A stretch of DNA of 64,000 nucleotides, from positions 4,724,001 to 4,788,000 of the forward strand of contig NZ_CP109598.1 of assembly GCF_036327775.1 (NCBI RefSeq), given 5' to 3'. Positions 15,300 to 49,153 of this stretch are shown here, piece after piece. How positions within the stretch are numbered: the stretch's first letter is position 1; the number at the start of each line of letters is the position of its first letter. Both the position numbers and the translations under genes were made by a program. Below the pieces are notes generated by a model. That model ran no database searches. It saw only the letters and a list, made by a program, of their open reading frames with translations, and had not been told where the DNA came from. This DNA comes from Streptomyces sp. NBC_01498. GTDB taxonomy: Bacteria; Actinomycetota; Actinomycetes; Streptomycetales; Streptomycetaceae.

Positions 15300-15313
15300 C
15301 GGCGTTCCTTTGC

Positions 15314-15372
15314 TACGTTGGAGGGACCCCGACGAGACGCGCCGTACCGGGTCAAAGGTAAAGACGACGCAC
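15314..15372 (+). promoter_or_regulatory. Guanidine-III (ykkC-III) riboswitch with its promoter
   Basis: A TACGTT -10 box at 15314-15319 is followed after a few bases by sequence closely resembling the ykkC-III consensus. CCCCGACGAG is at 15327-15336, GCGCCGTACC at 15339-15348, GGTC follows, then AAGACGACGC at 15361-15370. The two conserved arms that form the pseudoknot class are present in the right order and spacing. Placement directly before a SugE-type exporter fits guanidine-induced expression. The identification comes from remembered motif similarity and was not scored with a covariance model. Confidence 0.8.
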
Positions 15373-15403
15373 CCGTTGTCCGCGCTCCGCCGGAGGTGCC
15401 GTC

Positions 15404-27775: not shown

Positions 27776-27834
27776 GGCAACTCCTCTTGCGGCAACGGGG
27801 GTTCCATCCCATCGGAACGGATGGCTCACGCCAA

Positions 27835-27908
27835 TCACTCGTTAGAGGGAATCCCTTCGTGCACATTGCATCTCGGGATGCCCACTGTCATCCTGTCACA
27901 ACGAGTGA
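27835..27908. promoter_or_regulatory. Spaced inverted repeat between XRE and ATP-binding genes
   Basis: TCACTCGTT (27835-27843) and AACGAGTGA (27900-27908) are perfect 9-bp complements 56 bases apart. They flank smaller repeats (AGGGAATCCCT-like dyad near 27847 and three CTGTCA copies). The arrangement between divergent regulatory genes suggests operators for the XRE protein. Confidence 0.55.
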
Positions 27909-27974
27909 CGGACTGTCACCGCAGGCTCACATCGGACGCGACGCCATCGGGCGCCCGACGGAAGGAGCAGGAGC

Positions 27975-28698: not shown

Positions 28699-30522
28699 TT
28701 ATGAGTCGTGGAAGAAACCGATCGATGGGTCGTCGGGTGTCCCTATCAACAGTGCGCGATCGAGGAGGGTGTTGTTCAACTCGCAGCTTGTCTCCGGCAA
28801 CAGGACACACGCGTGGCAGGCGGCCAGATTGACACTGTCGGCACCACTGGCCTCCGATTCCACGCAGAGCGGATCGGCCGAGCACCACCTGGCCCGACTC
28901 AATGCGGACGGCAGAGATGTTTCAAGTTTGTTCGGTTCGCCCTGTGCGACCAAGCCGCCGAGGCTTCCGGCGGAGTCGCTGGTCGCGGTGTAGATGAGGA
29001 GTCCAGCCATGTTGTCGTCGCCGTACAACCGTTCCCGAAGCGAGGAGGCGGGGTAACCGCCGTCCAGACTCCACTCGTTGATGAGAACGTGCGCGAGTGT
29101 GTGCAGCAGCACCGAGCGAGGCGTCGTAGGTGAGGCCGGGGCGGCCGTAGGGTCTCCGGTACGCACGCGTAGCCGGCGTAGCTGGTTGTTCCTGATGCGT
29201 TCCACCCGGGCGGCCACCGCGATGTTCTGTGCCCACGCGTCGAGTCGCCGCTCGTCGAGTCGGAGGAACACCCCCTCGCCCTGGACCTCCATGGCGGGAA
29301 GCCACTCCTGGGGAGTCAGGAACAACTCGGCTTTGTGGACATCGGAATGTGTGTCCGGAGTGTCGACCCGGGAGAATGCCGTGAGCGCCCGAACCTCACG
29401 GAGTCGTTTCACCAGCATCGGACCCGTCAATCCGTAAGGCGTCAAGGCCGACGCCGACGCCTTCGGCGGCTCACAGATGAACTGTTCCTCCCGATCCGCA
29501 GAGCTCTCCAATTTCCCTTCGATCAGTCGCTCGTATTCCTTCCTACGCAGGGCGACGTGGGAACTGTCCTTGATTTGCTCATCGACATCTTCTCCGTCCT
29601 CGTGACTCTCTGCCTCTAGGAGTTCGAGTACGGAGTCCAAGGAGAACTCGTACGACTCCTTGATGGTGACGGCTTTGAGATAGATCTTGATTTCGTCGCG
29701 TGTCATGACGCGCAATTCGTCCCAATGGTCCGCCAGGCGGGCGGCGAGACCGCCACTCCACGGGGGGATCGACAGTGCGGTCTTCACGATCGGGTGCCAT
29801 ACGACCGACGAGCCTCGTTGAAGGGTTCTCGGCGCTTCGGTGCATGGCTTGACCGGGTCATTCTTGAGCCATGGACGTCTGCCGTCGCAGCGGACCTTGA
29901 GCTCGGACAGAGCCCTGCTGCGGAAAGCGCCTTCCATGGAAACTTCGGGGACACCACAGGTGCAGGAGATCAGGATGGAGCGAAGTGATGCCGTCTTTCC
30001 GCTGGACCGCAGGCGCATCTTTCCTCCGCACAGGCCGGTCTCGCCGATTCGGCGGTTGTTGCGGTGCGCCCATTTCCAGTAGGGAAAGTCGTCAATGTGC
30101 CCGCGGGCGCAGGCCATGACGAAGCGCGAAGGGACCAATTCCTCCTCACAGTCCCCGCACTCGTTCTTACCAGGTGGAGAGTTGAAGCCGCGCACATGCT
30201 GCAAGGTGCCGCATCTCGGGCAAGAGTGCCACAGTGGGAAACGGCGGACCCTCACCCCGTCCCTGCTCGTGTCGTCGGAGGCGGGTGGGAGTCGGAAATA
30301 CTTCACCCCGAGATTCTGCGCGAGTCGATGTTCGTCGATTCTCGGTGCGTCGTTGACATTCCAGGAATCTGTCCCGCATACGATGAACGACTCGTTGTCG
30401 ACAGCGATCAGCGAGCCGACTCCGTACGTCGTGATCATCTGTGAACGTCGGACCGAACCGCGTCGCGGAAAGCTGCGCTCGGGCGAGCTTCCTCGGCGAC
30501 GACGGGCGGGCGGCGGGGTCAT
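28699..30522 (-). CDS. drmB: DrmB-like DUF1998 protein
   Basis: 607-aa protein, last gene of the minus-strand defence operon. The N-terminal region has RSQMITTYGVGSLIAVDNESF, typical of DrmB. It is followed by zinc-ribbon cysteines (CPRCGTLQHV and ECGDCEEE) and the ACARGHIDDFPYWKW segment. The C-terminal DUF1998 part is seen in HTLAHVLINEWSLDGGYPASS and the cysteine cluster CSADPLC, CHACVLLPETSCE. In DISARM, DrmB works with the DrmA helicase to sense and unload phage DNA. The ATG at 30522 overlaps the drmA stop as ATGA. The length matches known DrmB proteins. Confidence 0.88.
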   Translation of the reverse strand: MTPPPARRRRGSSPERSFPRRGSVRRSQMITTYGVGSLIAVDNESFIVCGTDSWNVNDAPRIDEHRLAQNLGVKYFRLPPASDDTSRDGVRVRRFPLWHSCPRCGTLQHVRGFNSPPGKNECGDCEEELVPSRFVMACARGHIDDFPYWKWAHRNNRRIGETGLCGGKMRLRSSGKTASLRSILISCTCGVPEVSMEGAFRSRALSELKVRCDGRRPWLKNDPVKPCTEAPRTLQRGSSVVWHPIVKTALSIPPWSGGLAARLADHWDELRVMTRDEIKIYLKAVTIKESYEFSLDSVLELLEAESHEDGEDVDEQIKDSSHVALRRKEYERLIEGKLESSADREEQFICEPPKASASALTPYGLTGPMLVKRLREVRALTAFSRVDTPDTHSDVHKAELFLTPQEWLPAMEVQGEGVFLRLDERRLDAWAQNIAVAARVERIRNNQLRRLRVRTGDPTAAPASPTTPRSVLLHTLAHVLINEWSLDGGYPASSLRERLYGDDNMAGLLIYTATSDSAGSLGGLVAQGEPNKLETSLPSALSRARWCSADPLCVESEASGADSVNLAACHACVLLPETSCELNNTLLDRALLIGTPDDPSIGFFHDS

Positions 30523-33500
30523 CGGGATGCCTCCAAGAAGAGAGCGGACTCGGCGTCGACATCGCGCAGACTCCACAGTGTGTGCCACGCCGTTTCATTG
30601 GTTTCGTCGTCGAAGGCACACAGAAGAGAGGGTGTTCTTCGACCACGTGGGGATTCGTACACCAATCCGCCGTTCGCCTCGGCCTGGGCGGACCAGTCCT
30701 CGACGAATTCGTCGAACGCATCACGCGTCGCCTCATACTCGTCCTTGTTCACCCTCAGGACCCGCTCCAGGAGTGGTGTCTTGACCCTCCGTTCGAGTTC
30801 TTCTCGGAACTCGTCGATCCTGCCCGCACCGTCCGCAGGTCGGGCGACGGGGATGAGCAGGCGGGCGAGGGCGACGATCACCGCGTGCAGACCACGGTCA
30901 CGGGCACGGGAGGAGAACGGCGTGACGCTGGTCGACTCCACCTCGCGATAGAGGGCCGAGTGGAAGTGCCGGAAGCCCTCGTAGTGCGAACGGTCGCGGG
31001 AGCGTGCCGAGTTGAGCATGACGGCCACCAGTCCCGGATGCCGTCGGCCGACCCGACTGGTGGCCTGGATGTATTCGGCGGTCGTCTGTGGCTGACCCAT
31101 CACTGCCATCAGTCCCAACCGGTCGATGTCCACTCCGACGGAGATCATGTTGGTCGCGAGAAGGACATCCACCGTCTCGTCGTGAGGAAGCCGCCGCTCG
31201 ATCTGTTTGAGTCGGGCCGGGACTTCGCTGGAGTTCGCACGACTGGTCAGCTCTGTCTGTTCCTTGATCGTCCGCTTCTCGACGCCGTCCCTGTCCGCGA
31301 GGTACTCCAGATATGCCTCGACGTCGTCGTGCACCTGAAGTTCGGCCGCCGCCAACAACCGGAGGCTGTTGAAGTACCCGACAAGCGTCCAGTACGCGTC
31401 ACGCACGTCCTCGGTCGTGTCTGCCCGCATCGCTTGGTGCAGAAGTGTCGCGTACGTACGAATGAGCAGTGTGGACTGGCTCGTACTCGGTGTGAGGAGG
31501 CCGATGTACTGGCGGCTGGCCTTTCGTTCCCGGGGGGTCTCGACGGCGAACCAGGAGTCGCGTGCGTCGAGTCCCGCCGGGGGGAACTGCGCCACCGCTC
31601 GATCGAACAGCGCCTTGCCCTGGTCGGTCGCGCGTCGGATGGTCGCTGTGGAAGCGATGACCTTCGGACGATCGGAAAGGAGGTCCACCGCCGTTTCGTA
31701 CAGTCCGGTGAGAGTGCCCAGAGGTCCTGAGATGAGGTGCAACTCGTCCTGGACGATCAGCTCGGGCGGGGGGGTTCCGTCCGAGCGGTCGCGGTTGAAG
31801 AGGGCAGCCGTTCTTTCGCGCCAAGGCATCGCGGCGAACTTGTCCACCGTCGCGATCACCAGTGTGGGACGGGCGTCATACACGGCCTCGTCCACGAGAT
31901 GGACGGGGAGGCCGTTGCGGAAGTCACAGGCACCGTCGGGGCAGCGGACGTACATCCGACAGGCCTCCTCGTCCACCTCGTACTGGTACGCGTCGAGGCG
32001 GGCGCCACACCAGGGACAGGCGTGGAGTTGGACGGGGTTTTTCTCCTGGAGCGCCTTACCGCCCCGCAGGTCCGTCAGACTGGCCGCCGCAACCGAGAGC
32101 TTGTTCGGGGTGGCGGATTGACCGACCCACATCCCGATCGAGATCGGCTCGGTGCCCAGGGTCGCCACATGCTCGATCCGGATCCGCTCCATGGCGCAGA
32201 TCAAGGCTGTGGCGCGTTCGAACTGTTGCAGAGTGAGCAGCCTGAGGGTGTAGCGCATGAGCACCGTGACGCCCGCGCCGCGCTCCTTCAGCCGCATACG
32301 ACGCAGGAACGTGATGAAGGCGATGAGTCCGAGATACGCCTCCGTCTTGCCGCCACCGGTGGGGAACCACAGCAGGTCGGCGATCTCGTGGTCCGGGTGT
32401 GTCGGATCGACGATTCCTTCCAGACACAGGAGCATGAAGGACACCTGGAAGGGGCGCCATCGTCCCGCGCTGTCGTCGGGCGAACCGACGTGGCCGTTCC
32501 TGATCCACTCGCCACGGGCGCGCTGCCGGGCCATCGCCAGGTTGGCGAGGCGGAAGGCCTTCAGGGCATCGGGTTCATCCCTGAGTACCTGGACGCCGGA
32601 CCGCATGCGCACCAGTGCTTGACGGCACTGCTTGACCTGCTCCCTTGCGGGGGCCTCGAAAGACGTGCCCTTCAGGGTGTCGACTTCCTTCGCTTTGCTC
32701 CCGATCCACCTCTCGTATCCCGTCAACAGATCGTCAAGGGCACCGAGAACGTCGGAATCCGCACCGGACGCCAGACCTTGCATGGTGAGTGCCGAATCGT
32801 CGATCTCCGGGTTGGAGTCGGTGAGGAGTACGTCATGAGTGGGTACGAACTCCGTCCGTAGCGCGGCGACGGCGGACCGCTCGGCAGGTGGAGCGCCGAC
32901 AGGCGCCGGGGTCCAGTCCCAGTCGGCGGCACAACCATGGCCCATGGCGAACGTGGGCGCATACCGGTGAAGCAGCCTGCTTGCGCCCTGTTCCGGGTCG
33001 ACCGGTCCCCTGGTGGCCGGCCGCTCCACGAACGCCCGCTCACCGTTGGGGCAGGTCACAGTCAGGCGAGGCTGGTACAGGGAGAAGGCGTCCTGAAGTT
33101 CGTGCTCACCGACCCTTTTCTCGTTGATCAAGGTGACGGTCACGGTGACGGTGGCGTCCGGTCCCGAGGGAGGACGTACAAGTGCCCGAAGCTCAACGCC
33201 GTCGCCGAGGGGGTCCGGCCGGAACATGCCGGTGCGTGTCACGTCGATCGTCACGGGACGCAGTGCCAGCGGGCGTCGTCGCCAGTGTTCGGACTGGTCG
33301 GACGTGCTTCGGGCCTCCGCACGCTTCGCGGAGATCGGTCGGCCCTGCGGATCGATCGGGTCGTACGCGGCGGCCTCGGTGGTCACCAGGATCGTGGGCG
33401 ACAGGGCGGGGTCGACGGCGAAGGTGAGCCCCATGGACGACGGCCGCCGGTTGGTGGCGAGCGCGACTCCGAGATCCGGTCCGTGGTCCTCGACGTCGAG

Positions 33501-33749
33501 GCGTCGCTGGACAGGCACGTCGTCGAGACCGTCGTCCTCGGCTCGGACGGCGGCGAATTCCTCCTCCGCCTCTTCCGTCGAGGGCCGGGGGAACAGCACC
33601 CCGACGGGGTAGGTCGTGATCGGCGGGTCCTGCGTCAGAACCTCGTCGTCGCCCCCCGGCCCCGGTCCCATGAGGTCTCGCCGGAGTTGGGCGACGAGTT
33701 CGTCGCGCATCGCGTAGTGCCGGCCGTGTCGGCCTTCGCCGTTCGTCAT
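30519..33749 (-). CDS. drmA: DrmA-like SF2 helicase
   Basis: 1076-aa helicase. Walker A is DLLWFPTGGGKTEAYLG at about residue 460. The DEXH box has the variant LIVQDELHLISGPLG at about 665, SATIRRA is motif III, TNMISVGVDIDRLGL is motif V and QATSRVGRRHPG is motif VI at about 895. A four-cysteine zinc ribbon (HACPWCGARLD and RCPDGACDFR) is inserted between motifs I and II. These features and the adjacent DUF1998 gene match DISARM DrmA. A GAGGGA ribosome site lies before the ATG, 15 bases after the preceding stop. In DISARM it forms a complex with DrmB. Confidence 0.9.
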   Translation of the reverse strand: MTNGEGRHGRHYAMRDELVAQLRRDLMGPGPGGDDEVLTQDPPITTYPVGVLFPRPSTEEAEEEFAAVRAEDDGLDDVPVQRRLDVEDHGPDLGVALATNRRPSSMGLTFAVDPALSPTILVTTEAAAYDPIDPQGRPISAKRAEARSTSDQSEHWRRRPLALRPVTIDVTRTGMFRPDPLGDGVELRALVRPPSGPDATVTVTVTLINEKRVGEHELQDAFSLYQPRLTVTCPNGERAFVERPATRGPVDPEQGASRLLHRYAPTFAMGHGCAADWDWTPAPVGAPPAERSAVAALRTEFVPTHDVLLTDSNPEIDDSALTMQGLASGADSDVLGALDDLLTGYERWIGSKAKEVDTLKGTSFEAPAREQVKQCRQALVRMRSGVQVLRDEPDALKAFRLANLAMARQRARGEWIRNGHVGSPDDSAGRWRPFQVSFMLLCLEGIVDPTHPDHEIADLLWFPTGGGKTEAYLGLIAFITFLRRMRLKERGAGVTVLMRYTLRLLTLQQFERATALICAMERIRIEHVATLGTEPISIGMWVGQSATPNKLSVAAASLTDLRGGKALQEKNPVQLHACPWCGARLDAYQYEVDEEACRMYVRCPDGACDFRNGLPVHLVDEAVYDARPTLVIATVDKFAAMPWRERTAALFNRDRSDGTPPPELIVQDELHLISGPLGTLTGLYETAVDLLSDRPKVIASTATIRRATDQGKALFDRAVAQFPPAGLDARDSWFAVETPRERKASRQYIGLLTPSTSQSTLLIRTYATLLHQAMRADTTEDVRDAYWTLVGYFNSLRLLAAAELQVHDDVEAYLEYLADRDGVEKRTIKEQTELTSRANSSEVPARLKQIERRLPHDETVDVLLATNMISVGVDIDRLGLMAVMGQPQTTAEYIQATSRVGRRHPGLVAVMLNSARSRDRSHYEGFRHFHSALYREVESTSVTPFSSRARDRGLHAVIVALARLLIPVARPADGAGRIDEFREELERRVKTPLLERVLRVNKDEYEATRDAFDEFVEDWSAQAEANGGLVYESPRGRRTPSLLCAFDDETNETAWHTLWSLRDVDAESALFLEASR

Positions 33750-33764
33750 GTCTCAGGTCCCTCT

Positions 33765-35660
33765 TCAGAGTTCCGTCCGGGTTCGTCGATACCGACCGAG
33801 CCCGGACATACGCGGTACCACCCACACTCCGTGGTCGCCGAGTCCGGCACGCGCGGCGGAGGCGGTACTACCGGCCACGCTTTCCAGACAGTCCACCCGG
33901 TAGCCCGTGATCTCCACCGGCCAGTTGATGCTCCAGGTTCTGTTGATCTTCAAGGACGCATGAAGGTCCCGACGGAATTTCTGCGACACCACCGCGATCG
34001 GCCTGTCGTGGTGGAAAACTGTGTACGGAGGGCTCTCATCGACTGCCAACGGCATCTCGTGCTGGGCACGGAGCACCAGTTCGTCGCCGGGCCGAACCAT
34101 GGACGTCAGGTAGGTCTGGATCTCCGAGGGATCCGCCTCGAACCCGTCCATACCCGGAGGGTGTTCCCGGGAGACGTCCTGTCCGGACGCAGACAGCCCG
34201 TTACGGAAGTACGACTGCCCGCCGCCCAGGTACCAACGGTCGCTGAATTTCTCCCTTCGGACCATTGCCGTGTTGGGGGCCGCGATACGGAACAGGTCGT
34301 CCCTCGGACGGGTCATCGCGACGTAGAGCGCCCTGGCTTCGGCGGCAGGGTCGATGTACGTGTGTTGCCTTCGCAGGTCCGTCGTGTTCGGCGGCTCCAC
34401 CACGATGACGCGATCGAACTCGAGCCCCTTCGCACGGTGAACCGTGGACACCACCAGCCCGACGGGTTCGGTCGTGACGAGGTCGTCCGGGAACCGCCCT
34501 TCGACGATCAGCCGACGCACCCCCGTGACGTCCATCAGACCGCGGGGCCCGCGCGCCGCGCCACGCAGTGAACGCCAGAGTCGGCCCGGGTCCTGATCGT
34601 CAGGAGCAGGACCGGCGGCGAGAAGGTCCAGGAAGCGCTCCTCCACCATGGTCGTGGACCCGGTGGCACGCAGAACGGACGCGACCCAGGCAGGGACGGG
34701 GCGGTCACGGAAGGACCGCTGCAACCGGGACCGGATCCCTCGCGCGTGCAGCGTGTCCGAAAGGACGAGCGCCTGCCGGTTGTCCCGGCAGAGGATCGCG
34801 CACGTACCGGGGAACTCCCGCAGCGAGGCCAGGGTGAAGTCGCTGTCCAGCGGACCGAAGTCGGGGCAGCGGCGCAACAGGTCGGAGAGCTCGCGGTGGA
34901 GAAGTTCACCGGCGGCGTCGGATTCCTCTGTCTCGGAGGGCAGCCGACGGAGGGTCGGGCCGAGGGGGAGCGCGGTACGCGCCTCGTCCGTACGAGCCCG
35001 GAAGTTGGCGGACAGATGGAGCTCGACCAGATCGTCCGGGTACGACGCCCTGAGCCAGTCGAAGAAATAGTTCGTCTCCGCCGCGCGGGCGTCGTCGTCC
35101 GCCACCTGGAAACCGAAGATGGCCTGTGCCCCGTCGCCCACCACCGTGAAGCCGCAGCCGTCCTGGAAGCGGTCGAGCAGGGTCTCGACCATGTCCCGGC
35201 GATCGCCCACCAGATCCTGTACCTCGTCGATGACGACGTGCGCAGGCGCACCGAGTTCACCGGCCTCGACGGCACCCCGCATGATCGCCTCGGTGGCCTC
35301 CTGGATGCGCTCGTCGAAGCCCAGCGTGCTCCATTCGCGGTCGGGATACATGTTCCGCAACAGCGAGTACGCCCATGAGTCGAACGTCTGCACCCTGACC
35401 CGACGGGCCTCGCGCCCGTGCAGCGCGATCCGCTCCCGCAACTCCCTGACCGCAGCTCGGGAGAAACTCAACACAAGGATCTCCCGGGCCTCCAGCGCCT
35501 CCTCCTCGTCACTCATCAGCGCGTCGAGTCGACGGACGAGGGTGTGGGTCTTGCCGGCACCCGCACCGGCGGTGACCAACAACCTCGTGTCCCATGGCTG
35601 TTCGACCACCGTCCGCTGCTCGGACGTCAGTTGCGGACTCTCGAGGTAAACGGCGCTCAC
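33765..35660 (-). CDS. UvrD/Rep-family SF1 helicase
   Basis: 631 aa from the GTG at 35660, which overlaps the upstream stop as GTGA; a second GTG 12 bases earlier is possible. The Q-motif LTSEQRTVVEQPWDTRLLV is followed by Walker A AGAGAGKTHTLVRRL (about residues 31-45). Motif Ia is VLSFSRAAVREL, motif II VIDEVQDLVGDRR (about 142), motif V STVHRAKGLEFDRVIV and motif VI YVAMTRPRDDLF. The C-terminal 120 residues are not helicase-like and may bind partners. It is a single-strand DNA translocase, probably acting with the helicases encoded beside it. It is not a usual member of described DISARM loci. Confidence 0.9.
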   Translation of the reverse strand: MSAVYLESPQLTSEQRTVVEQPWDTRLLVTAGAGAGKTHTLVRRLDALMSDEEEALEAREILVLSFSRAAVRELRERIALHGREARRVRVQTFDSWAYSLLRNMYPDREWSTLGFDERIQEATEAIMRGAVEAGELGAPAHVVIDEVQDLVGDRRDMVETLLDRFQDGCGFTVVGDGAQAIFGFQVADDDARAAETNYFFDWLRASYPDDLVELHLSANFRARTDEARTALPLGPTLRRLPSETEESDAAGELLHRELSDLLRRCPDFGPLDSDFTLASLREFPGTCAILCRDNRQALVLSDTLHARGIRSRLQRSFRDRPVPAWVASVLRATGSTTMVEERFLDLLAAGPAPDDQDPGRLWRSLRGAARGPRGLMDVTGVRRLIVEGRFPDDLVTTEPVGLVVSTVHRAKGLEFDRVIVVEPPNTTDLRRQHTYIDPAAEARALYVAMTRPRDDLFRIAAPNTAMVRREKFSDRWYLGGGQSYFRNGLSASGQDVSREHPPGMDGFEADPSEIQTYLTSMVRPGDELVLRAQHEMPLAVDESPPYTVFHHDRPIAVVSQKFRRDLHASLKINRTWSINWPVEITGYRVDCLESVAGSTASAARAGLGDHGVWVVPRMSGLGRYRRTRTEL

Positions 35661-38600
35661 TTGGCTCCCCACAGGTGCTCGAACCCGGTGAACGCCAGGG
35701 CCTTCCCGTAGTTCGTGATGTTGTCCCGGACGTTCAGGATCAGGCAGGACTCCTTGCCTCCGTTGCGGGGCCCGCGCAGGCCGCGACCGATCATCTGCTG
35801 GTAGACGTTCGGGCTGTACGTGGGGCGAGCCACCACAACAGCACGGGTGGCGGGGGCGTCGAAACCCTGCGTGAGAACACCGTAGTTGGTGAGCACACGG
35901 ATCCCCCCTCGCCGGAAGAGGTCGATCCGCTGTCGACGTTCACCGGTCGGTGTGGCGGAGTCCACCGCAGCGGCTGAGATGTCGAGATCCTTGAGCTTCG
36001 CGGCCAGGAACTTCGCGTGGTCGACGGACGTGGCGAAGACAAGGACCGGCCAGTCGGACGGCATGCTTCGAATCTCCTCGAGGATGCGGTCGTTACGGTC
36101 CTGGTCATCGGCAAGTCGCTGTTCGGCGGCCTTGGACAGCAAACTGAGTTGGTCGGCCCGCTGCTTCTCGTCGTGCGTCAACTCGATTGTTCCACCAAGA
36201 AGTTCTCGGTGCTCGACCCGGGCGAGCATGCCCAACTCCTGCAGCTCCGCGTAGGGAGCACCCGAAGGGAAGATTCCCTCGTCAAGACGCCGGGCGCCGA
36301 ATCGCTGGACCAGACGGCGGGTCTCCTCGTCGTTGGTGTTACGGAACGGCGTGGCGGTCAACCCGAGCAGGTGCCGTTCGGTCTCACGCGCGGTGAGGCC
36401 GAGTTCCGCGAGGATCTCCGTGTACCGCTTCGTGATCGCCCCATGCGCCTCGTCCACGACGACGAGGCCGGCCGACCGCAGCCATGCGTAACCGGGGGTT
36501 CCCAGACACTTGTGGAGCTTCGCGTCCGTGGCCACGACGAGGTGCGGGCGGTCCGTCACCGGACCGGCCTCGTTCGACGACCAGAGACGGCTGATGGTGA
36601 GCGGGCTGTCGGCCCCCACCTTGGACCAGACGAACTTCCAGCTCTGAACAGCCTGTTCGCACAGCTCCTCGGTCTGGGCGATCCACAGGATGGGACCCGC
36701 CAACTGCCCCGACTGCTTGACCCACCTGATGACGGCCTCGGCCGTCACTCGCGTCTTTCCCGCACCGGTGGGAAGCGACAGCATCCCGCGCTGCGGGGTC
36801 AGCCGGTCCAGCATCGCGAACACGTTGGTGGCCAGACGCTCCTGGTAGTCGTGCAGGCGTGGGAAGGCCGTCGGTCCTGCGACGTCGATCCTCGGCTCCA
36901 GGGACGGTGTCCGGGCACCCGCGAAGGAGTCGGGGAAACCGAACTCCGACACGAACTTCACCGCCGGGGAGGCGCCGCTGAAGGAGGAGGGCGCGTGACT
37001 CGGGTACGCCGCGACGAGATCCTTGGCGTGGTTGTGAAGGACACCGTCCCCGTGGGCGTTGTACGCCATCCGCGCGATACGCCGGGGGGAGGGCTCCTCG
37101 TCGCCGAGTGCCGCCCGCTCGCTCTCCAGCAGACCGGGTGGCAGACCGGCCCGGAGCGCCGTCGCACCGATCAGAAGTTCCAACTTCTCCTCGACGCTGT
37201 CCGCCTCCCGGACCTTACGGAGGGCGCTCTGCACCTGCTGGTCGGCCTCCTGGCGTTCCTGGGCGTCCAGCACGGCGCGACAGCCCGACTCCTCCAGGCC
37301 CCAGCGAAGTTCGCGGTCGGCGGTGATCAGTGCGTCGAGTCGGGAACTGGATTCGAGTACGAGCACGGTGGAGCCGTGGAGGGCGCCGGTCAGCGGTGCC
37401 GCACGGGTTCCTTGCGGCGTGCGGGTCACCTCCTCCAACTCGGAACACCGGAGGAGGCTGAGATTGTTGACGGAACTCCCGAGCCGCTGGCGAAGGGTGG
37501 GGTACTCGTCCCGCAGCGGAATCGGCTCACCCACCCCCACGTGCCGAGTCTCCTTGGTGATGACGTCGGAGTGACGCAGCATCCCCCAGGTGCGGATCAG
37601 GAGATCGGCGTCCGCCGAGCCTCCGGTGAGCAGGGCCGGAATCTGCTCGGCGCGGAGGGCCCGATATTCGTCCTCACCGGCGGCCACCGCGATCTCTCCG
37701 TCCTCGCGGGCACCCCATTCGGAGCCGATACGGCAGCGTGTGAGCGTGTCGGGGAAGGGCACTTCGAGACGCGTGAGCATCACGTAGGTGCGTCCGACGA
37801 AGGCGTCGTCCTCGCTGCTTGCCAGTTCCTGCAGGAGTTGGGCCCATTGGCCGGGGGGAACGTCGGCGACCACGCCGGGCAGATGCAGCTTCCGGGCCTT
37901 TTCCGCACTGATGTCGGCCACGGGCAGGACATCGCTGTACGCGTGGAGTTGTGGCCCGACGGCATCGCCCATCCGGACGACTCCTTGCGATGTCGGGAGC
38001 ATGCCGTGACCGTGGAGCATCCAGCGGAGTGGGGAGATGACCCGTCGTCGGGTCGACGCCTGGACACCGATCTGCATCGTCCACGAGTCGATGACGCTCT
38101 CGTCGGGCAGAGCCTTGACGAAGGCTGCCTTGCCCTCGTCGGACAGCCTGGAGAGCAGGTGCAGAGGCCCGCCAGGAGCTGCGCCCTCAAGCTTGATCCG
38201 ACTGAGGGCGGGCCGGCTCGCGCTGCTGTCCAAGGTCCTGCAGTAGTCCTCGTGGACCGACACGCGATACTCGTCGAACCACTCGGTGCCCTCGGGCCGC
38301 TGCCCGCCGACGGGTCGGTCGCGGAGGCCGAACTCGCGGAAGACGGACATGTCGTCGGAGTGGAACCCCATGTCCACCGTGACGGACCCGTCCCGGGTTC
38401 CGTCGCCGGGGACGACGGGACCCGGCAGCAGGCAGTCGCTCATCCGGTGGTAGCGACCGTCCACGGTGCGGACGAAGAGCGTGCTCATGGGCGCGCCGAC
38501 GCGGGTCTTCACCTCCATGGAGACGTGGCTGCCGCCGGCACTGTGGAACAGCTCCCAGAAACGTGTCCAGTCCTGTGGGCCGTAGTTGTCGAAGCCCTGA

Positions 38601-40432: not shown

Positions 40433-40532
40433 TTCTGGGGCCGATCGCCGGACGCGAGGAAGGCAGGGGCCGACCACGTTCGGCCGGCCCCGGGGAGACG
40501 ATGGACGTCAGATCTGACGGTGTATCAGCTTG

Positions 40533-40871
40533 TCACAGCTCAATGATGAGAATGATGAACTTCCGGCGGGACGGGGACCGCCGAACGCGGCGACGAGGAG
40601 TGTTCCTGTCGCGCGGTCCTGTCGTTGCCGTGGGCGTCGACGTGGGACGACGCCGCCGCGAACTACGCGCGCGGCGGGATTCGGCGGTCACCGGGGACTC
40701 GCTCCGCTCTGCGCCCCTCTTCGCGGCCGTGCGACGACGGGATGCCTCACGCCTGCGACGAGCGCTCTTGAGATCGGCAGGCGTCATGCCCATCGACATC
40801 AAGAATTCGAGACGCAGTTCGGGCCCTTCGATGGAGTCATGGAGATCGATGTACCTAAAGTCTTCCGGCAT
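40533..40871 (-). CDS. Small basic hypothetical protein at the head of the defence operon
   Basis: 112 aa from the ATG at 40871, starting MPEDFRYIDLHDSIEGPELR and continuing LEFLMSMGMTPADLKSARRR. The first 40 residues look like a folded acidic/hydrophobic segment. The rest is an Arg/Ser/Thr-rich tail ending SRRKFIILIIEL. The frame is open upstream to 41087, but that portion overlaps A+T-rich sequence. It lies 100 bases before the GHKL-helicase and points the same way. I do not recognise it; an arginine-rich tail suggests nucleic-acid binding. It may also be a non-coding leader. Confidence 0.5.
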   Translation of the reverse strand: MPEDFRYIDLHDSIEGPELRLEFLMSMGMTPADLKSARRRREASRRRTAAKRGAERSESPVTAESRRARSSRRRRPTSTPTATTGPRDRNTPRRRVRRSPSRRKFIILIIEL

Positions 40872-41436
40872 GGAAGGCCCCCGTTTTCTCTGTCGTCGGT
40901 CGGACGAATTGATGGGCATGCAAGTAGGGCGGAGGAATGCACCTGAGGAGAGAAGTACATTACGACGTGCACTGCTTCGGAGAATGATGAACCCGGTTGC
41001 TTCCACGAAGCACGCGAATATTGTTTCGAGCACGGATAATTCGCTCTCCACCTTGTGGGTGAAGAGGAGTTTTCCGTTGTTGGGCACGACAAATGGAGGG
41101 CCACATTCCGAGGGTTCCTCGGCTGCCGGTAATTTGGCCGTGGCAGCACGTTATGTGGGAATCTCTCATTCGTCAACTCCCGATCAGACATACCTCGTTC
41201 GGGGGAGATAGATGGACTCGGCATCGAAATTCGAATGGGGCATATCGGGCAAAGTGTCCATTGCTCCCATTTCCTTTATATGGGTTGATGGCGTCGTATG
41301 GAAAATCTGGAACGAGAAAGGAACCGGGGGTCGAGTGGGCTGCGTCAATCAACATTGTCACTCATGATGGTTGTCAAATATCGGCTAGGATGAGGCTCGC
41401 AACGATGTGCCGAACTGAGGCGAGGAGTGGTGTGAC
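40872..41436. promoter_or_regulatory. A+T-rich divergent control region of the defence operons
   Basis: This 565-bp gap has clearly lower G+C than anything around it and separates two large divergent operons. No convincing gene is seen. A direct repeat TTGTCA at 41355-41360 and 41371-41376 (16-base period) lies about 60 bases before the XRE-GHKL start and could be an operator for its helix-turn-helix. TAGGAT at 41386-41391 is a possible -10. Promoter assignments are not firm. Confidence 0.5.
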
Positions 41437-43548
41437 GTGGACGGCGGAGAGGACTTCGGTCCCTGGCTGGCGCGACAGCTACGACGGTTGGGCATGAGCC
41501 AGGCTGAACTTGGGCAGCGAGTGGGTCTCACTCGCGCGGCCGTCTCCGCCTGGATCACCGGGAGGGCTGTGCCGCGCGAGGACATGATGCGCCGTATCGC
41601 GGAGGCCCTCGGTACCGACGCCGGCACGGTTCACACACGCACGACGGACACCGTGAGCGTTCGTCCCGTCTCCTGGTACCACCGACCGTCGCATGCCGAC
41701 GGAGGACGTGAGTTCGGCAATCCCGCGGCCTTCGCCTTCGAGGCCGACGTCGATGTCCTGGCGCGGGAGGCGACCCAGAACAGTCTCGACGAACGCCTGG
41801 ACCGCGCCTGCCCCGTGCGGGTTCGGTACACCCTGCACGAACTCAGCGGTGAGCCGCTGGCCCGCTTCCGGGACGCGATCGGCTGGTCCTACCTGCGTCC
41901 TCACTACGAAGCTGCGGCTGCCCAGGACCAGAAGGTGGGCAGGGTCATCGCCGAGGGCCTGCGCGACATGAACGAGCGGGACCGGCTCGTACTTCTCCGG
42001 GTCGACGACTACAACGCCTCGGGTCTCACCGGGGACGACTACGAGGACGGCCGGTTCGCGGCGGTCGTCCGACGGCAACTCGACAGTCACAAGTCGGACG
42101 ACGGCGCGGGCGGTTCGTACGGTCTCGGCAAGGCCACCTTGTGGGCCACCAGCCGGCTGGGACTCGTCCTCATCAACTCCACCTTGTCCGAACCTCACGA
42201 GGGTCGTTCGCAGCGCCGACTGATCGGGCGCCTCGAACTGCCCTGGCGGATGGTGGACGGGGAGACCTATGCGGGTCCTGCCTGGTTCGGCGAACCCGAC
42301 ACAGATCCGGGAGCCCGGAAGAACGTGGCGCGTTCATGGTGGGCCGACGAGGAGACCGTGGAGCGCCTTCACCTGACACGCGAGAGCGAGGAGCCCGGTA
42401 CGTCCTTTCTCATCGTCGGGGCGCACGACGTGGCGAGCGGACCGAACGACCCGGCAGGGGAAGAGGCCGACGAGGAGGAGTCCGTCCAGACGATGCACAG
42501 GAAGTTGGTGCTGGCGCTCGCCGACAACTTCTGGGCGGCCATGACGTCCGGCTCCACCACCGCGCCCCTGCTCGAAGCATCGGTTCGGAGCCTGCGAAAC
42601 GGCGCCGTGGTGATGAAGGAACAACGTGTCGATCCACGAATCGCGCGCCCCGCACTCACCCGGGCACTGAAGGCGTTCTTCGACGGACAGACCGTCGACC
42701 GACTCACAGAGGTCGGAGAGGTGGCCATGGCGCGGGTTCCCTTGAAGGTTCCGGCGATACGTGGACGTGGCAAGGCTGTCGTGCACGAAGCGGTGCTCCT
42801 GGTGACCGCTGCGGAGGACAGAGATGGCAAGCCCAACCACATTGTCACCATGCGGGGCAGCCGAATGAAGGTCCGGTCCGTACGGGTCTCGGATCTTCCC
42901 CTGGGGGCCGGCCCGTTCCAAGCGGTACTACTGGCAGGCCATGCAGCCGGACAGGACGCGGCGGAGGCCGACAGGGCCGAGGCATTCCTTCGCGCTTCCG
43001 AGCCACCCGAGCACAACAAATGGGCTCAGACGGAAGAATTGCGCGCAAGTTACTCGCCCACGGCTCACTGGCGGATCTCCGAGTTCACCACGGCTGCCAA
43101 CAAAGCGGTTCGGGCGATCGTCGGTCGTCGCGAGGAGCGGAGTCAGGAGGGTCCAAAAGCGCTTCGGGAGCTGTTGGGGCTGGAAGGCGCGCCGTCGGCC
43201 GGCACGAAAGGCGGCGGCTTCCCGGTCATCCTCGACCTGGACGCCTTCGTGGACGACGCGGGAGCGTGGCAGATCGAGGCGGAGGTCAAATTGCCCGTCC
43301 GAAAGGACCCATGGGTCATGAGCCCGGTCGCCCGATTCGAGGTCAGGTCGGGCGGGCGGCCGTCCGTTGCGTGGTCGAGCGTCGTCGCCGGCGACAACTG
43401 CCGAGTTGTCGACGACGCACTGCACTTCAAGGCCGGCGCGCGTACGGCATCGTTCACCGCCACCACAGATGTCTCCACCCACCCGGTGCGCGCGGTCCTC
43501 GCAGGCTTGGTCGTCGATCTCCAGAAGTCGAAGGGTGCCTCCGAATGA
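41437..43548 (+). CDS. XRE helix-turn-helix fused to a GHKL-type ATPase
   Basis: 703-aa protein, first gene of the plus-strand defence operon, GTG start with GAGGAG upstream. Residues about 8-60 are a Cro/CI-type helix-turn-helix (LARQLRRLGMSQAELGQRVG, LTRAAVSAWITGRAVP). Then comes a GHKL fold: VDVLAREATQNSLDER (N-box, about 115), LVLLRVDDYNASGL (D-box) and GGSYGLGKATLWATS (G-box). The C-terminal 400 residues are unrecognised. The fusion links operator binding with an ATPase, suggesting it both controls the operon and takes part in the reaction. The stop overlaps the next ATG (ATGA). Confidence 0.82.
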   Translation: MDGGEDFGPWLARQLRRLGMSQAELGQRVGLTRAAVSAWITGRAVPREDMMRRIAEALGTDAGTVHTRTTDTVSVRPVSWYHRPSHADGGREFGNPAAFAFEADVDVLAREATQNSLDERLDRACPVRVRYTLHELSGEPLARFRDAIGWSYLRPHYEAAAAQDQKVGRVIAEGLRDMNERDRLVLLRVDDYNASGLTGDDYEDGRFAAVVRRQLDSHKSDDGAGGSYGLGKATLWATSRLGLVLINSTLSEPHEGRSQRRLIGRLELPWRMVDGETYAGPAWFGEPDTDPGARKNVARSWWADEETVERLHLTRESEEPGTSFLIVGAHDVASGPNDPAGEEADEEESVQTMHRKLVLALADNFWAAMTSGSTTAPLLEASVRSLRNGAVVMKEQRVDPRIARPALTRALKAFFDGQTVDRLTEVGEVAMARVPLKVPAIRGRGKAVVHEAVLLVTAAEDRDGKPNHIVTMRGSRMKVRSVRVSDLPLGAGPFQAVLLAGHAAGQDAAEADRAEAFLRASEPPEHNKWAQTEELRASYSPTAHWRISEFTTAANKAVRAIVGRREERSQEGPKALRELLGLEGAPSAGTKGGGFPVILDLDAFVDDAGAWQIEAEVKLPVRKDPWVMSPVARFEVRSGGRPSVAWSSVVAGDNCRVVDDALHFKAGARTASFTATTDVSTHPVRAVLAGLVVDLQKSKGASE

Positions 43549-44519
43549 AGGTCTTCCCCTACCCGACCTTGGCCGGAGAGGTATCGCTCCAGGTGACGGC
43601 CGTGAAACAGGACCAGCACAGACTTTCCACGTCGGTGTTCTCCGGAGACGAGCGTGTCGTCGCTCTCCACCAGGTGGAGCGGTCCGACTGGACCTACTGC
43701 CGGATCGGCCTCACCGCGTTCCTGCCCGCCAAGGAGTTGGACGAGGGGCCATGGCAGGACGTCGCTGCCGTCGCCGTGTTGACCGAGAAGGCTACCAACA
43801 CGCGTACAACGGCGGTGCTTCGACGGCAGGGGGACGGGACGGAGTGGAAAGGGAGGCTCGGACTGTGGCGGGCGGCCCATCTCAGCCGTGCCGATTTGTC
43901 GGTGTCCGTCGTCGCGACGACGGACGGTGTGCCAGGACGGGTGATCGGCGGATCCGAGGCGAACTGGGTGGTCGACTTCACCGCACGATCGCCGGTCCGT
44001 CGACGTGAATTGCGTATCAACGAGGTCGACTTCGTGGACGGGCCGCAAGAGTGGCTTCGCCCATTCAAGGATGCCCCCTGGCTGGTGGAGACCTCCGGGG
44101 AACTTCCGACCGTTCATCTCAACACGGGATTCGAGGGCGTCGCGGAACTGCTCAACTCCGGTGGTGGCTCGCTTGAAAGGGCTGTCAGAGACATGCTCGC
44201 GACACAGATCGCCATCGACGTATGGACAGCGGTGTTCCATGCCGCCGTCAGCGACCTCGAACTGGATGCCGAGGGAAAACCCGAGTGGCCCGGCGGATGG
44301 CGCGACACGGTGCTTCGAGGAATGCTCCGTGACGTCCTCCCGGGGATGTCCGACGTCGATGCGTTGGGTGAGATATATGCCCGCCGCAAAGAGTCGTCCG
44401 GTTGGAACGAACTTCTGCCCCGCATCAGTTATGCGGCGGGGCGGCGGGCGAAAGTGGCAAGAAACCTCGGCACCACCATTCGGGCACTCGACGCGTCCCA
44501 GAAGGCGAGCAAGGCATGA
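43545..44519 (+). CDS. Uncharacterised defence-operon protein
   Basis: 324-aa protein starting MKVFPYPTLAGEVSLQVTAV. It appears soluble, with a mixed beta-rich N-terminal half and a helical C-terminal half. No catalytic motif or known domain is recognised. It is held between the XRE-GHKL gene and the third gene by ATGA overlaps at both ends (43545-43548 and 44516-44519), so the three proteins are probably made in fixed ratio and may form a complex. Confidence 0.8.
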   Translation: MKVFPYPTLAGEVSLQVTAVKQDQHRLSTSVFSGDERVVALHQVERSDWTYCRIGLTAFLPAKELDEGPWQDVAAVAVLTEKATNTRTTAVLRRQGDGTEWKGRLGLWRAAHLSRADLSVSVVATTDGVPGRVIGGSEANWVVDFTARSPVRRRELRINEVDFVDGPQEWLRPFKDAPWLVETSGELPTVHLNTGFEGVAELLNSGGGSLERAVRDMLATQIAIDVWTAVFHAAVSDLELDAEGKPEWPGGWRDTVLRGMLRDVLPGMSDVDALGEIYARRKESSGWNELLPRISYAAGRRAKVARNLGTTIRALDASQKASKA

Positions 44520-45403
44520 CCGACAAGCCCGAACCTCTCCCGGACCGCCTGGCCCTGCTCCCGGACATCAATGCCGCCAGGTACATCAGTACGGGAGTGC
44601 GGGCGGGTCGGGAGGATCCGCCGTACATCGACCTGAGCCGTCAGGTGTTGGCGTTGCCGGATGCAGATTTTCGTTTCCGGGTCGAGCCGGTGCGGGATCT
44701 GATCGACGACGTGATGCACCTCTACAAGGACGACACGCGTACCAAGGCCGACGCGTGGCTCGCTCCCCGCCTGCACGCGACGCTTCGGCTCACTCGTAGG
44801 GAGGCTGCCGACGAGGGTCTGTGGAACCACCTGGCGCTGGCTGTCGCCCCGGACTACCTCGTGTGGCGGCACCTCCCGGCGAAGGGCAAGGACGGTCTGC
44901 CCCCGATGGTCTCGGCGAGTCGATTCCGCGGTGCGCATCACACGCAAGCCTTTTCCCGCCTGTGGTGGGCAGCCGAACTGTTCAGAAACGGTGCCGACTA
45001 CGGTCCGGCGGTGGTGGCCTGCGGGAATCAGGACGTCCTCAACACGGTGTTGCGATTGGACGTCATCGACCACAGGCCGACCGCACAGGCGTTGATAAGA
45101 CTCGTGGAGCAGGAGGTGGCGAGTACGGGCCGTGAGGTGAACGCTCTCGCCACCGTTGCGAACGCAGCAGCGAGCACTCTGCTGTACGACGTACTCGCGG
45201 CGGACGACGAGGGGGACGGCGAGGCGCTGCACGAATGGGTCATGAGCGCCGACTCGGCTCCGCCGGTGGCGCGCCGGTCCCTACCTCAGGGGCCCGGAGA
45301 CATCCCCGTACCGGAAGAGGCCGTGCACCTTCTGGCCGAACAGTTCCGGGACCTCTTCCAGGACGCGCCGGTACGGGGGAGAACCGTGGCGTCCGAAGTG
45401 TGA
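44516..45403 (+). CDS. Uncharacterised protein, DUF6339-like
   Basis: 295-aa protein starting MTDKPEPLPDRLALLPDINA. The middle has APDYLVWRHLPAKGKDGLPP and SASRFRGAHHTQAFSRLWWA, features I associate tentatively with the DUF6339 family often found next to Vsr and cytosine methylase genes. No nuclease signature is evident. It is the last gene of the XRE-GHKL operon and ends 28 bases from the convergent methylase gene. Confidence 0.72.
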   Translation: MTDKPEPLPDRLALLPDINAARYISTGVRAGREDPPYIDLSRQVLALPDADFRFRVEPVRDLIDDVMHLYKDDTRTKADAWLAPRLHATLRLTRREAADEGLWNHLALAVAPDYLVWRHLPAKGKDGLPPMVSASRFRGAHHTQAFSRLWWAAELFRNGADYGPAVVACGNQDVLNTVLRLDVIDHRPTAQALIRLVEQEVASTGREVNALATVANAAASTLLYDVLAADDEGDGEALHEWVMSADSAPPVARRSLPQGPGDIPVPEEAVHLLAEQFRDLFQDAPVRGRTVASEV

Positions 45404-45431
45404 GCCCGTCGACCGGTCGGCGGTAGCCGGC

Positions 45432-46472
45432 TTAGCGGGAGACGGCGAAGTCGAACATGCCGGCCTCGGCCTCGGAGTAGGACGGCTCCCCGAGGCCGAG
45501 CGCCTCTGTGAGGACGTGCCGGGCAAGGAGCGGCGGGATGGCGTTGCCGATCTGCTGCGCCACGTCCTGGCCGCTCCACGGATAGTCGGCGGGGAACGTC
45601 TGCAGGAGTCCGGCCTCGGCCGGGCTGAAACGGTCGAGTTCCTTGCCGTCCATCGTCTGCACACGGTTGCGGAAGATTTTCCCGGTGACGGTGGCAGCAG
45701 GCTCGTCGGAGCGCCGTCGGCCGCGGAGTTTGGGATCTCCGCCGGTTCCGTAGTTGGAGATGACGACGAACTTGTCGTCCCTGCCCAGGGCTTCGCCCAT
45801 GCTGATCCAGGGCTTATGTTTCGAACTGCCGACATCGGGACCCACGCCCTTGCGGTAGGGCTGATGGGTCGTCTGCGGGAGCGTGGCGTCGGGGCCTTCG
45901 CCTTTCCGGCGTGCGATGAGAATGGCGCGGCGACGTGTTTGCGGGACCCCGTACTCTTCCGTGCGCAGCACGCCGAATTCTGTCGAGTAGTGGAACTTCT
46001 TGAGCACTTTTGCGACTGCACCCCACACCGGAAGAACCGACTGGACCTGCTCCAGAACGATCACGTCATAGGGAGAGCCTGTCTTCTCTGCTTCGAGCAC
46101 CCACCGGAGAGGTTCCAGCACCAAGCCTGTGCGCTCGTCGTCCAGCCTTTGCAGATCCTTGGTGACGTCGTCACCTCGGCCCATTCGTTCGACATATTCG
46201 AGGACGGTCTCCAGCGCCTTGCGTCCGGCACCGGTGCCGGCCACGGTGAAGGTCTGACAGGGCGGTCCGCCCGCGAGCACCGTGGCGTTGGGAAAGTCCG
46301 AGGGGCCGAATTCTCGTACGTCACCGGGCTGGGTGACGAGGCCGGCAGCCTTCCGCGTGGCACACGCGTCGTCATCCCATTCGATACCGCTGACCGGTAG
46401 CCCCAGATCTCTCGCGGCTACGTCCAGCCCGCCGGGCCCGGCGAACAGGTCCACGATCTCGACCGGACGCAC
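45432..46472 (-). CDS. dcm: DNA (cytosine-5) methyltransferase
   Basis: 346-aa C5 methylase. Motif I is IVDLFAGPGGLDVAARDLG, the catalytic loop is GGPPCQTF (motif IV, Cys about residue 72), motif VIII is PQTRRRAIL and motif X is GNAIPPLLARHV. Motif VI reads LEQV in place of the usual ENV; the essential Glu is kept. GTG start at 46472 with GGAG six bases upstream. It would protect host DNA for the island's restriction activities. The target site cannot be read from sequence. Confidence 0.93.
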   Translation of the reverse strand: MRPVEIVDLFAGPGGLDVAARDLGLPVSGIEWDDDACATRKAAGLVTQPGDVREFGPSDFPNATVLAGGPPCQTFTVAGTGAGRKALETVLEYVERMGRGDDVTKDLQRLDDERTGLVLEPLRWVLEAEKTGSPYDVIVLEQVQSVLPVWGAVAKVLKKFHYSTEFGVLRTEEYGVPQTRRRAILIARRKGEGPDATLPQTTHQPYRKGVGPDVGSSKHKPWISMGEALGRDDKFVVISNYGTGGDPKLRGRRRSDEPAATVTGKIFRNRVQTMDGKELDRFSPAEAGLLQTFPADYPWSGQDVAQQIGNAIPPLLARHVLTEALGLGEPSYSEAEAGMFDFAVSR

Positions 46473-46551
46473 ATGATCTCCAGGCTGTCGAAGTGGCTGT
46501 ACAGGCGTCGCGTTTCATGACCGATCCGCGAAGATCGCCGTCGCACAGGAT

Positions 46552-46585
46552 ACCCGTGCGGCGCCGCTGCCGACGCCGCACGGGT
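46552..46585. terminator. Terminator between the two methylase genes
   Basis: Perfect 12-bp stem ACCCGTGCGGCG (46552-46563) and CGCCGCACGGGT (46574-46585). It follows the second methylase gene (minus strand) and shows that the two methylase genes are separate transcription units. Confidence 0.8.
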
Positions 46586-46625
46586 GGCCCGGCACGGAAT
46601 CACCCACGGCGCGGCGGGCTGTCCC

Positions 46626-47594
46626 TCAGATCAGGGCCTCGGCGATGGACAGCCCCAGAGCGTGTCCCACGGGTGGCGGTGAGGCATGACCGATCTGCCG
46701 GTACCTGGCGGTCTTGCCGCCTGCGAACCGCCAGTCCGACGGGAAGGACTGCAGGATGGCGGTCTGCGCCACTGTCAGCTTCTTGAGCGGAGAGCCGGAC
46801 GTGTCCGATTCCTGGATCCCGTCGGGGCCCGGGACCTCGTCGCTGAGGGCGCCGCCGTTGATGCCCATCCGGGCCCAGGCACGTTTGGTGCCGGTCAGGC
46901 CCAGATCGGCACCCCCGCGATTGTCCGAGCCTCCTACCAGGGTCGGGGCCACCTTGTCGGCAGACGCGGCCCAGTCATCGGTGCCGGTCCAACCGCGTGC
47001 GGACATGGAGGCGCGGAGGGCACGGCCCACGTTGACATGCTCGGACACCGTGGCCACAGGCGGTTGGTAGGCTCGCGAACCCTTCCTCTTCATCGCGACC
47101 AGTACACCCTGCTTACGGTCCTGAGGGACTCCGAAGTCGGCGGCGTTGAGTACGAACCAACTGAAGGTGTAGCCGAGATGGACGAGCTCCTTGTGGGCGA
47201 AGTCGCGGAACGCCGCGAATTCCGGCGCCCCCGCAAGCCCGGGAACGTTCTCGATGAGGAGCGCCCTCGGCTGGACGGCGTGGACGAGGTAGATGGTGGC
47301 TTCCAGGAGACGTACCTCGTCGTCGTCGGTGGTCCGGCCGCGAGTCGCCGCCGACTTCACCCGGGGCAGACCGGCCGAGAGTAGGTCGACGTCGTAGCAG
47401 TGCTGGTGATCCACCGGGTCGAAGTCCAAGAGATCCGTCTCCAGGACCTGCCAAGAGGGCCTGTTCAGTCGTAGCGTCTCGCACGCGACGGGATTCTTGT
47501 CGAGCAGCAACACCGGCTCGAACCCGGCCTGTTCGAGCCCCAGCGTCAGCCCTCCCCCTCCGGAGCACAGATCCAGGGAACGCAGCTTCTTCAC
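46626..47594 (-). CDS. C5-methylase homologue lacking the catalytic cysteine
   Basis: 322 aa from GTG 47594 (VKKLRSLDLCSGGGGLTLGL). Motif I is intact, motif VI is LIENVPGLAGA and motif VIII-like QDRKQGVLVAM is present. Where motif IV should read G-P-P-C-Q it reads LLSAGLPRVKSAA, so Pro-Cys is replaced by Pro-Arg. The last region has GHASPPPVGHALG (motif X-like). It is therefore unlikely to methylate by the usual covalent mechanism; a specificity or sensing role, or a different chemistry, is possible. The start overlaps the vsr stop as GTGA. Confidence 0.88.
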   Translation of the reverse strand: MKKLRSLDLCSGGGGLTLGLEQAGFEPVLLLDKNPVACETLRLNRPSWQVLETDLLDFDPVDHQHCYDVDLLSAGLPRVKSAATRGRTTDDDEVRLLEATIYLVHAVQPRALLIENVPGLAGAPEFAAFRDFAHKELVHLGYTFSWFVLNAADFGVPQDRKQGVLVAMKRKGSRAYQPPVATVSEHVNVGRALRASMSARGWTGTDDWAASADKVAPTLVGGSDNRGGADLGLTGTKRAWARMGINGGALSDEVPGPDGIQESDTSGSPLKKLTVAQTAILQSFPSDWRFAGGKTARYRQIGHASPPPVGHALGLSIAEALI

Positions 47595-48043
47595 GGGTTT
47601 CCGTCCTCGGTTCGTCGGGCTCTCTCGGACTTGATGTGGGCCAGGTTCGCCGCGACCTGCGACGCGATCTCTTCCGGTCTCTCGTGCTCCCAGAACCGCA
47701 GGACCGTCCAGCCCGCCGCCTCCAGATGCCCCGAAGTCTCCTTGTCCCTGGCGATGTTCTTGTCGAGCTTCTCGCGCCACCACTCGGCATTCGCTTTCGG
47801 CTGAGTCGCGTGCACGGGACAGCCGTGCCAGAAGCAGCCGTCGAGGAAGACTGCGACCTTGGCCCTGGTGAACATGATGTCCACGGACCGTCGAGGCATG
47901 TCGGGAACGCGAGCGTTGACCCGGTAGCGGTGACCCGAGGCGTGGAGCAGCTTACGAACAGCCACCTCGGGCTTGGTGTCGCGGCGCGCCTGTCGGCTCA
48001 TCCGGGCCGAGACAGCGGCGGATGAGGGCTTCGCTGTGTTCAT
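47591..48043 (-). CDS. vsr: Very short patch repair (Vsr) endonuclease
   Basis: 150-aa Vsr-fold nuclease. The family motifs are all visible: MSRQARRDTKPEVAVRKLLH, GHRYRVNARVPDMPRRSVDI (catalytic Asp) and VAVFLDGCFWHGCPVH (zinc and active-site residues), then GWTVLRFWEHE. Classical Vsr nicks T:G mismatches created by 5-methylcytosine deamination. Vsr relatives also serve as restriction nucleases in some systems. Coupling to the Cys-less methylase homologue favours the second reading. ATG at 48043, 22 bases downstream of the TPR/SEC-C gene on the same strand. Confidence 0.93.
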   Translation of the reverse strand: MNTAKPSSAAVSARMSRQARRDTKPEVAVRKLLHASGHRYRVNARVPDMPRRSVDIMFTRAKVAVFLDGCFWHGCPVHATQPKANAEWWREKLDKNIARDKETSGHLEAAGWTVLRFWEHERPEEIASQVAANLAHIKSERARRTEDGNP

Positions 48044-49064: not shown

Positions 49065-49153
49065 GGTCCTCACCGTACTGCTGTACGCCCGTCGGAGCGG
49101 AGGGTGTTCGGTCACGTACGTACGGCGGCCGCCCGCCGTACGTACGCGTGCCG

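Follow-up and report, generated by a model that had tools for sequence, protein, structure and literature searches.

Described relatives and layout of the island

Among the closest described relatives of the defence island considered here, which lies at positions 28,699 to 48,043 of a 64,000-nucleotide stretch of Streptomyces sp. NBC_01498 (contig NZ_CP109598.1; the whole stretch is hereafter the window), is the DISARM system. In the available text of a structural paper (PMC9142583), DISARM's DrmAB is an ATP-driven single-stranded DNA (ssDNA) translocase that binds 5'-overhang ssDNA, with an ATPase activity that methylated DNA limits; DrmC can be dispensed with and is frequently absent, and DISARM-type self/non-self discrimination is described as unclear. 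The island consists of two separable modules rather than one fixed system: a helicase cassette that includes DrmA and DrmB (cassette A), and a six-gene module here called the hub. Its most telling part, listed but left unused in an earlier note on this DNA (the original prediction), is a C5-cytosine methylase lacking the catalytic cysteine (hereafter the dead methylase), which by its sequence is a conserved pseudoenzyme. The genes of the island are as follows (aa, amino acids; SF1 and SF2, helicase superfamilies 1 and 2):

28699-30522, minus: DrmB, 607 aa, cassette A (PADLOC 8.2e-73; NCBIfam NF038324 476 bits against a cut-off of 240; Pfam MZB 1.1e-7)
30519-33749, minus: DrmA, YprA-type SF2 helicase, 1076 aa, cassette A (NCBIfam NF038325 1004 bits against a cut-off of 950; PADLOC 8.5e-246)
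33765-35672, minus: UvrD/GajB-like SF1 helicase, 635 aa, cassette A (Pfam UvrD-helicase 1.4e-25; PADLOC GajB 1.1e-27)
35657-40477, minus: GHKL-SF2, a TmtA/sacsin-like GHKL ATPase joined in one protein to a RadD-type SF2 helicase, 1606 aa with an uncertain start, cassette A (PADLOC TmtA 5.8e-41; ResIII 3.1e-17; NCBIfam RadD 6.9e-30)
40533-40871, minus: small basic protein, 112 aa (tblastn matches in nine other type-A intergenic regions)
41437-43548, plus: XRE-GHKL, an XRE helix-turn-helix (HTH) domain with a GHKL ATPase, PDC-M33A-like, 703 aa, hub (HTH_3 3.2e-11; PADLOC PDC-M33A 2.2e-22, residues 105-248)
43545-44519, plus: "mid", 324 aa, hub (no PADLOC or NCBIfam match)
44516-45403, plus: DUF6339 protein, PDC-M33C-like, 295 aa, hub (Pfam DUF6339 5.6e-10; PADLOC PDC-M33C 6.9e-6)
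45432-46472, minus: active-type C5-cytosine methylase (Dcm1-type) with PPCQ, 346 aa, hub (Pfam C5 methylase 7.7e-30)
46626-47594, minus: dead C5 methylase, LPR replacing PCQ, 322 aa, hub (Pfam C5 methylase 1.2e-40)
47591-48043, minus: Vsr endonuclease, 150 aa, hub (NCBIfam TIGR00632 1.3e-34; Pfam 9.5e-17; PADLOC 2.1e-14)

All ten proteins named in the original prediction have open frames where it placed them, with identities confirmed by Pfam, PADLOC and NCBIfam; it overlooked the small basic frame upstream of the GHKL-SF2 gene, which is likely an eleventh member and the first gene of cassette A. Within the minus-strand operon the GHKL-SF2 and UvrD genes overlap by 16 nt, UvrD and DrmA are separated by 15 nt, and the drmB ATG overlaps the drmA stop by 4 nt; overlaps of 4 nt also join XRE-GHKL to "mid" and "mid" to DUF6339 on the plus strand, and the GTG start of the dead-methylase gene to the vsr stop. 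The helicase motifs of GHKL-SF2, UvrD and DrmA look intact (judged by eye on a conservation print), zinc cysteines of the MZB/DUF1998 type are conserved in DrmB, and the UvrD protein has a C-terminal extension without assigned function. AlphaFold2 predicted for "mid" a beta sandwich at the N terminus followed by a helical C-terminal region (predicted local distance difference test, pLDDT, 86; predicted template modelling score, pTM, 0.54), and an all-helical DUF6339 protein (pLDDT 89, pTM 0.88). Measured in 2-kb blocks, the G+C content is 0.62-0.68 from 28 to 48 kb versus 0.74 at 24-26 and 48-50 kb, and low-G+C blocks are found elsewhere in the window too.

As in DISARM, DrmA and DrmB score above the curated NCBIfam cut-offs, with the solved DISARM DrmA (7s9v) matched at 3e-173, and a C5 methylase lies in the locus. 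The window differs in that UvrD and the GHKL-SF2 fusion precede DrmA in the operon and that the hub is attached. With regard to the DISARM methylases DrmMI and DrmMII, the window C5 methylase matches the generic MTase_II family at 1.6e-95 versus 1.7e-22 for the best DrmMII listed. The predicted absence of drmC is borne out by the one DrmC model used (PADLOC PDLC02585), which gave a single weak match in the window's own genome (22.5 bits, more than 500 kb away), none close to the locus in any of the 20 other type-A genomes searched, and a strong match in genome G029 on another contig; a cassette without DrmC fits the description, in the available text of PMC9142583, of a dispensable and often missing protein. 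DrmD (DISARM class 1) and DrmE (class 2) are not among the PADLOC families listed, three proteins being represented there by the best 25 of their 50-55 families.

Two plus-strand proteins, XRE-GHKL and DUF6339, correspond to the PADLOC candidates PDC-M33A and PDC-M33C, whereas "mid" has no PADLOC match up to an E-value of 1 (the existence of an M33B model is assumed); our literature search found no paper naming PDC-M33. No catalogued system is an exact match for the undescribed or little-studied variant of the original prediction, although these two proteins are already catalogued as candidates. The GHKL part of the 1606-aa protein also resembles TmtA, which we take to be Tiamat, but the match is confined to residues 36-529 and to model positions 11-466 of 1538, the rest being an SF2 helicase, in an operon. 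MORC and paraMORC restriction-modification neighbourhoods, in the available text of Iyer et al. 2008 (PMC2292703), bring a GHKL ATPase, an SFII helicase, a C5 methylase and Vsr together in a similar outline, but the operon types given there have no DrmA/DrmB, UvrD or dead methylase. Finally, the YprA-family systems ARMADA, Druantia and DISARM (Bell et al. 2025, PMC12458937) share the helicase superfamily, and ARMADA II pairs a YprA-like with a GajB-like UvrD helicase; ARMADA differs in its PglX-like methylase and BrxHII helicase, and the available text mentions no GHKL, MutL or histidine kinase. The locus is already known in parts (Iyer 2008; Miller 2022; PADLOC PDC-M33).

Recurrence and exchange of the two modules

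Genome contigs were scanned with the GHKL-SF2 protein and the best 80 of 137 relatives kept; these 80 loci are type A by selection, their 10-kb flanks hide genes farther out, and their 15 genera were assigned from record titles. Gene families were scored with hidden Markov models (HMMs) built from close orthologues, and calls rest on HMM and tblastn matches because the gene caller split many genes. All ten genes occur together in 50 of the 80 actinobacterial loci, which argues that the gene set is not due to chance. Gene by gene, cassette A is represented by GHKL-SF2 in 80 loci, UvrD in 79, DrmA in 78 and DrmB in 77, and the hub by XRE-GHKL in 71, "mid" in 71, DUF6339 in 70, the dead methylase in 66, the Dcm1-type active methylase in 63 and Vsr in 62 (two loci, L021 and L070, end at contig ends). 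The predicted sharing of one locus by DrmA/DrmB and the GHKL, C5-methylase and Vsr set recurs across the 15 genera, in most loci with the same divergent layout. That layout is not what links hub and cassette, since in L087 GHKL-SF2, UvrD, DrmA, DrmB, Vsr, XRE-GHKL and "mid" are all co-directional, and L097 has the same order without Vsr, the hub ATPase following DrmB.

In a sample of 392 Streptomyces genomes, XRE-GHKL was found in 83 and GHKL-SF2 in 63. The cassette beside the hub was cassette A in 60 of these 83 genomes, a NERD-helicase/DrmA/DrmB cassette in 8 and MzaB/C/D-like genes only in 14, with none recognised in 1, and a FastTree phylogeny of XRE-GHKL implies at least seven cassette changes. 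The Mza-like arrangement is probably what has been published as "three core plus three additional genes", with a link to endonucleases of DNA repair; the available text of that paper (section 11) mentions neither DrmA/DrmB nor a dead methylase. Relatives of MzaB, MzaC and MzaD gave no match against the window itself (tblastn, E 1e-3).

These figures could also arise if two independent defence systems, one a DISARM-like helicase system and the other a C5 restriction-modification/M33 system, shared an island. Defence genes as a rule cluster in islands; cassette A is absent from 23 of the 83 hub genomes, the hub ATPase from 3 of the 63 genomes with cassette A, and the hub from 9 of the 80 loci. 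The same separation, which the original prediction had itself named as evidence against it, removes its single fixed variant: the neighbourhoods it expected do recur with all ten genes, but its two operons also occur apart. However, hub and cassette A are adjacent (within 8 kb) in 60 of the 60 genomes that have both, compared with 13.3 of 392 genomes expected to hold both if the modules were independent (relatedness not corrected), and a different helicase cassette accompanies 22 of the 23 hubs that lack cassette A. Together with the recurrent divergent arrangement and the co-directional hub ATPase of L087 and L097, this makes two independent systems rather unlikely.

The ninth hub-less locus, L076 (Rhodococcoides corynebacterioides), retains from cassette A only the GHKL-SF2 protein; there it lies near a 2238-aa YprA/DrmA-like protein (29% to DrmA), in a stretch with no UvrD, DrmB or hub, perhaps a further cassette.

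A dead methylase as candidate reader

The PCQ motif is present in none of 67 dead-methylase orthologues versus 64 of 64 Dcm1-type partners, and the 120 best of 7435 database relatives of the dead methylase carry PR (119) or ER (1) instead. A tree placing the dead family among its nearest relatives (105 rows, with 93 Arg, 2 Ser and 10 Cys at the catalytic position) shows a single loss of the catalytic cysteine, with 95 descendants; this was a quick IQ-TREE run, in which the Cys/no-Cys split has an SH-aLRT support of 93, below 95. The ratio of non-synonymous to synonymous substitutions (dN/dS) is 0.10-0.32 in nine dead-methylase pairs (stop-to-stop frames), which corresponds to purifying selection. 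Motif I and GVPQ.R are kept, as is ENV except in L071 and L082; the target-recognition stretch APTLVGGS..RGGADLG, kept above all, is also present in Cys-bearing kin, and the protein has probably kept DNA recognition while losing catalysis. Of the 71 loci that carry the hub ATPase, 66 also have the dead methylase, which occurs in none of the 9 that lack that ATPase. In the 83 Streptomyces hub genomes a match lies within 8 kb of the hub ATPase in 77 and within 20 kb in 80; the catalytic position was inspected, in the 392-genome sample, only in fetched loci. All 20 genomes examined for a fusion encode one in which a DUF6339 domain precedes the dead methylase (L158, positions 8166-10025; L159; L160; L171; L215-L230).

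We give about even chances to a modular restriction-like immune locus in which a recognition-and-licensing hub works with one of several interchangeable DNA-helicase cassettes. Gene content, recurrence, cassette changes, the conserved loss of the catalytic cysteine and the DUF6339 fusion are the observations on which it builds; the roles of the active methylase, the dead methylase, DUF6339/"mid" and the HTH-GHKL ATPase are proposed from sequence features. The active C5 methylase would mark host DNA as self. The dead methylase, with its S-adenosylmethionine-site motifs and target-recognition region kept and no cysteine adduct to form, would sit on its sequence as a reader and, when binding unmarked DNA, could send a signal by way of DUF6339 (and "mid"). 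The HTH-GHKL ATPase would receive that signal and, closing in an ATP-driven step, load the helicase cassette on foreign DNA. In the window, GHKL-SF2, UvrD and DrmAB would then unwind, translocate and either block or expose phage DNA. That GHKL ATPases act as conformational-change engines beside helicases, C5 methylases and Vsr is an idea already put forward in the available text of PMC2292703. If true, the dead methylase would be the reader in a hub common to DISARM-like and Mza-like cassettes, which would make the self/non-self question testable; it would also be evidence that immune systems are assembled from recognition modules and engine modules that can be exchanged, and would add a pseudo-methylase to the natural DNA readers.

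Several observations weigh against such a mechanism. In 3 of the 83 hub genomes no dead-methylase match lies within 20 kb, and L161 and L166 have a dead methylase without a recognised hub ATPase. In 8 of the 80 loci GHKL-SF2, UvrD, DrmA and DrmB have neither the hub ATPase nor the dead methylase beside them, so that cassette A may work without the hub. A comparison with solved folds gave no role for DUF6339 or "mid", and the dead methylase could be an allosteric subunit rather than a DNA binder.

The dead methylase might alternatively be the DNA-binding half of a two-subunit methylase that, with the active C5 enzyme, methylates one site. BsuMI (YdiO/YdiP) is reportedly such an enzyme and serves as the model; one database relative (P0053) carries the source name "BsuMI modification methylase subunit YdiP", the dead and active genes are neighbours in many loci, and motif VI of the active partner is unusual, all 64 aligned rows having LEQV in place of ENV. 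However, in seven loci the active partner has been swapped for one from another C5 family while the dead methylase is retained, the two genes lie about 17 kb apart in L033-L035, L058 and L081, and the fusion partner in all 20 cases examined is DUF6339, not the active methylase. We therefore consider a two-subunit methylase doubtful.

Accessory Vsr and neighbouring genes

Under the modular mechanism that we prefer, Vsr is probably accessory, and would most likely serve in T:G mismatch repair at methylated sites or as a borrowed nickase. The original prediction had instead cast Vsr as the nuclease, and an effector guided by the dead methylase can be argued for: it is the only nuclease family recognised in the window module by Pfam, PADLOC or NCBIfam, its gene overlaps that of the dead methylase, it is present in most of the 80 loci, and Caulobacter lacking the C5 methylase, according to the available text of PMC12907096, shows a DNA-damage response caused by a Vsr-like protein. 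However, the fetched stretch holds no Vsr in 18 of the 80 loci; a search of 12 such genomes found a Vsr match somewhere in 11 and none in that of L033, and the only matches that could be placed (L092) are 470 kb or more away from the locus. Hubs beside two other cassettes that carry nuclease domains of their own (NERD or DUF4420) have Vsr as well, and in the available text of PMC8011034 V genes are common companions of C5 methylases, where they serve mismatch repair. The case for an effector Vsr is thus weak, and we find it improbable. Finally, functionless decay of the Cys-less methylase gene, as its lost catalytic residue and the fragment in L069 (a 177-aa frame, 99 bits) might suggest, is already contradicted by the low dN/dS, the single old loss with its many descendants and the conserved DUF6339 fusion, and has next to no chance of being correct.

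The locus L166 (genome G457) carries a dead methylase, an active methylase and Vsr beside a divergent GHKL-SF2 protein, a NERD helicase and DrmA, a mixed A/B cassette with no XRE-GHKL in the stretch. At one edge of the island in the window, an HTH_31/DUF5753 gene and an HATPase_c_2 gene (26927-28637) lie between a DUF445 gene and DrmB. At the other, the island adjoins a SEC-C motif gene (48069-49139, minus strand) in what looks like an insertion hotspot: among orthologues in 19 other genomes, a type-A locus lies within about 6 kb in G007 and G019, a DUF6339-dead methylase locus is the neighbour in G004 and a Cys-bearing C5 relative in G014. Farther away, the window contains a guanidine-III riboswitch (15302-15373, plus strand; 46 bits against a gathering threshold of 36).
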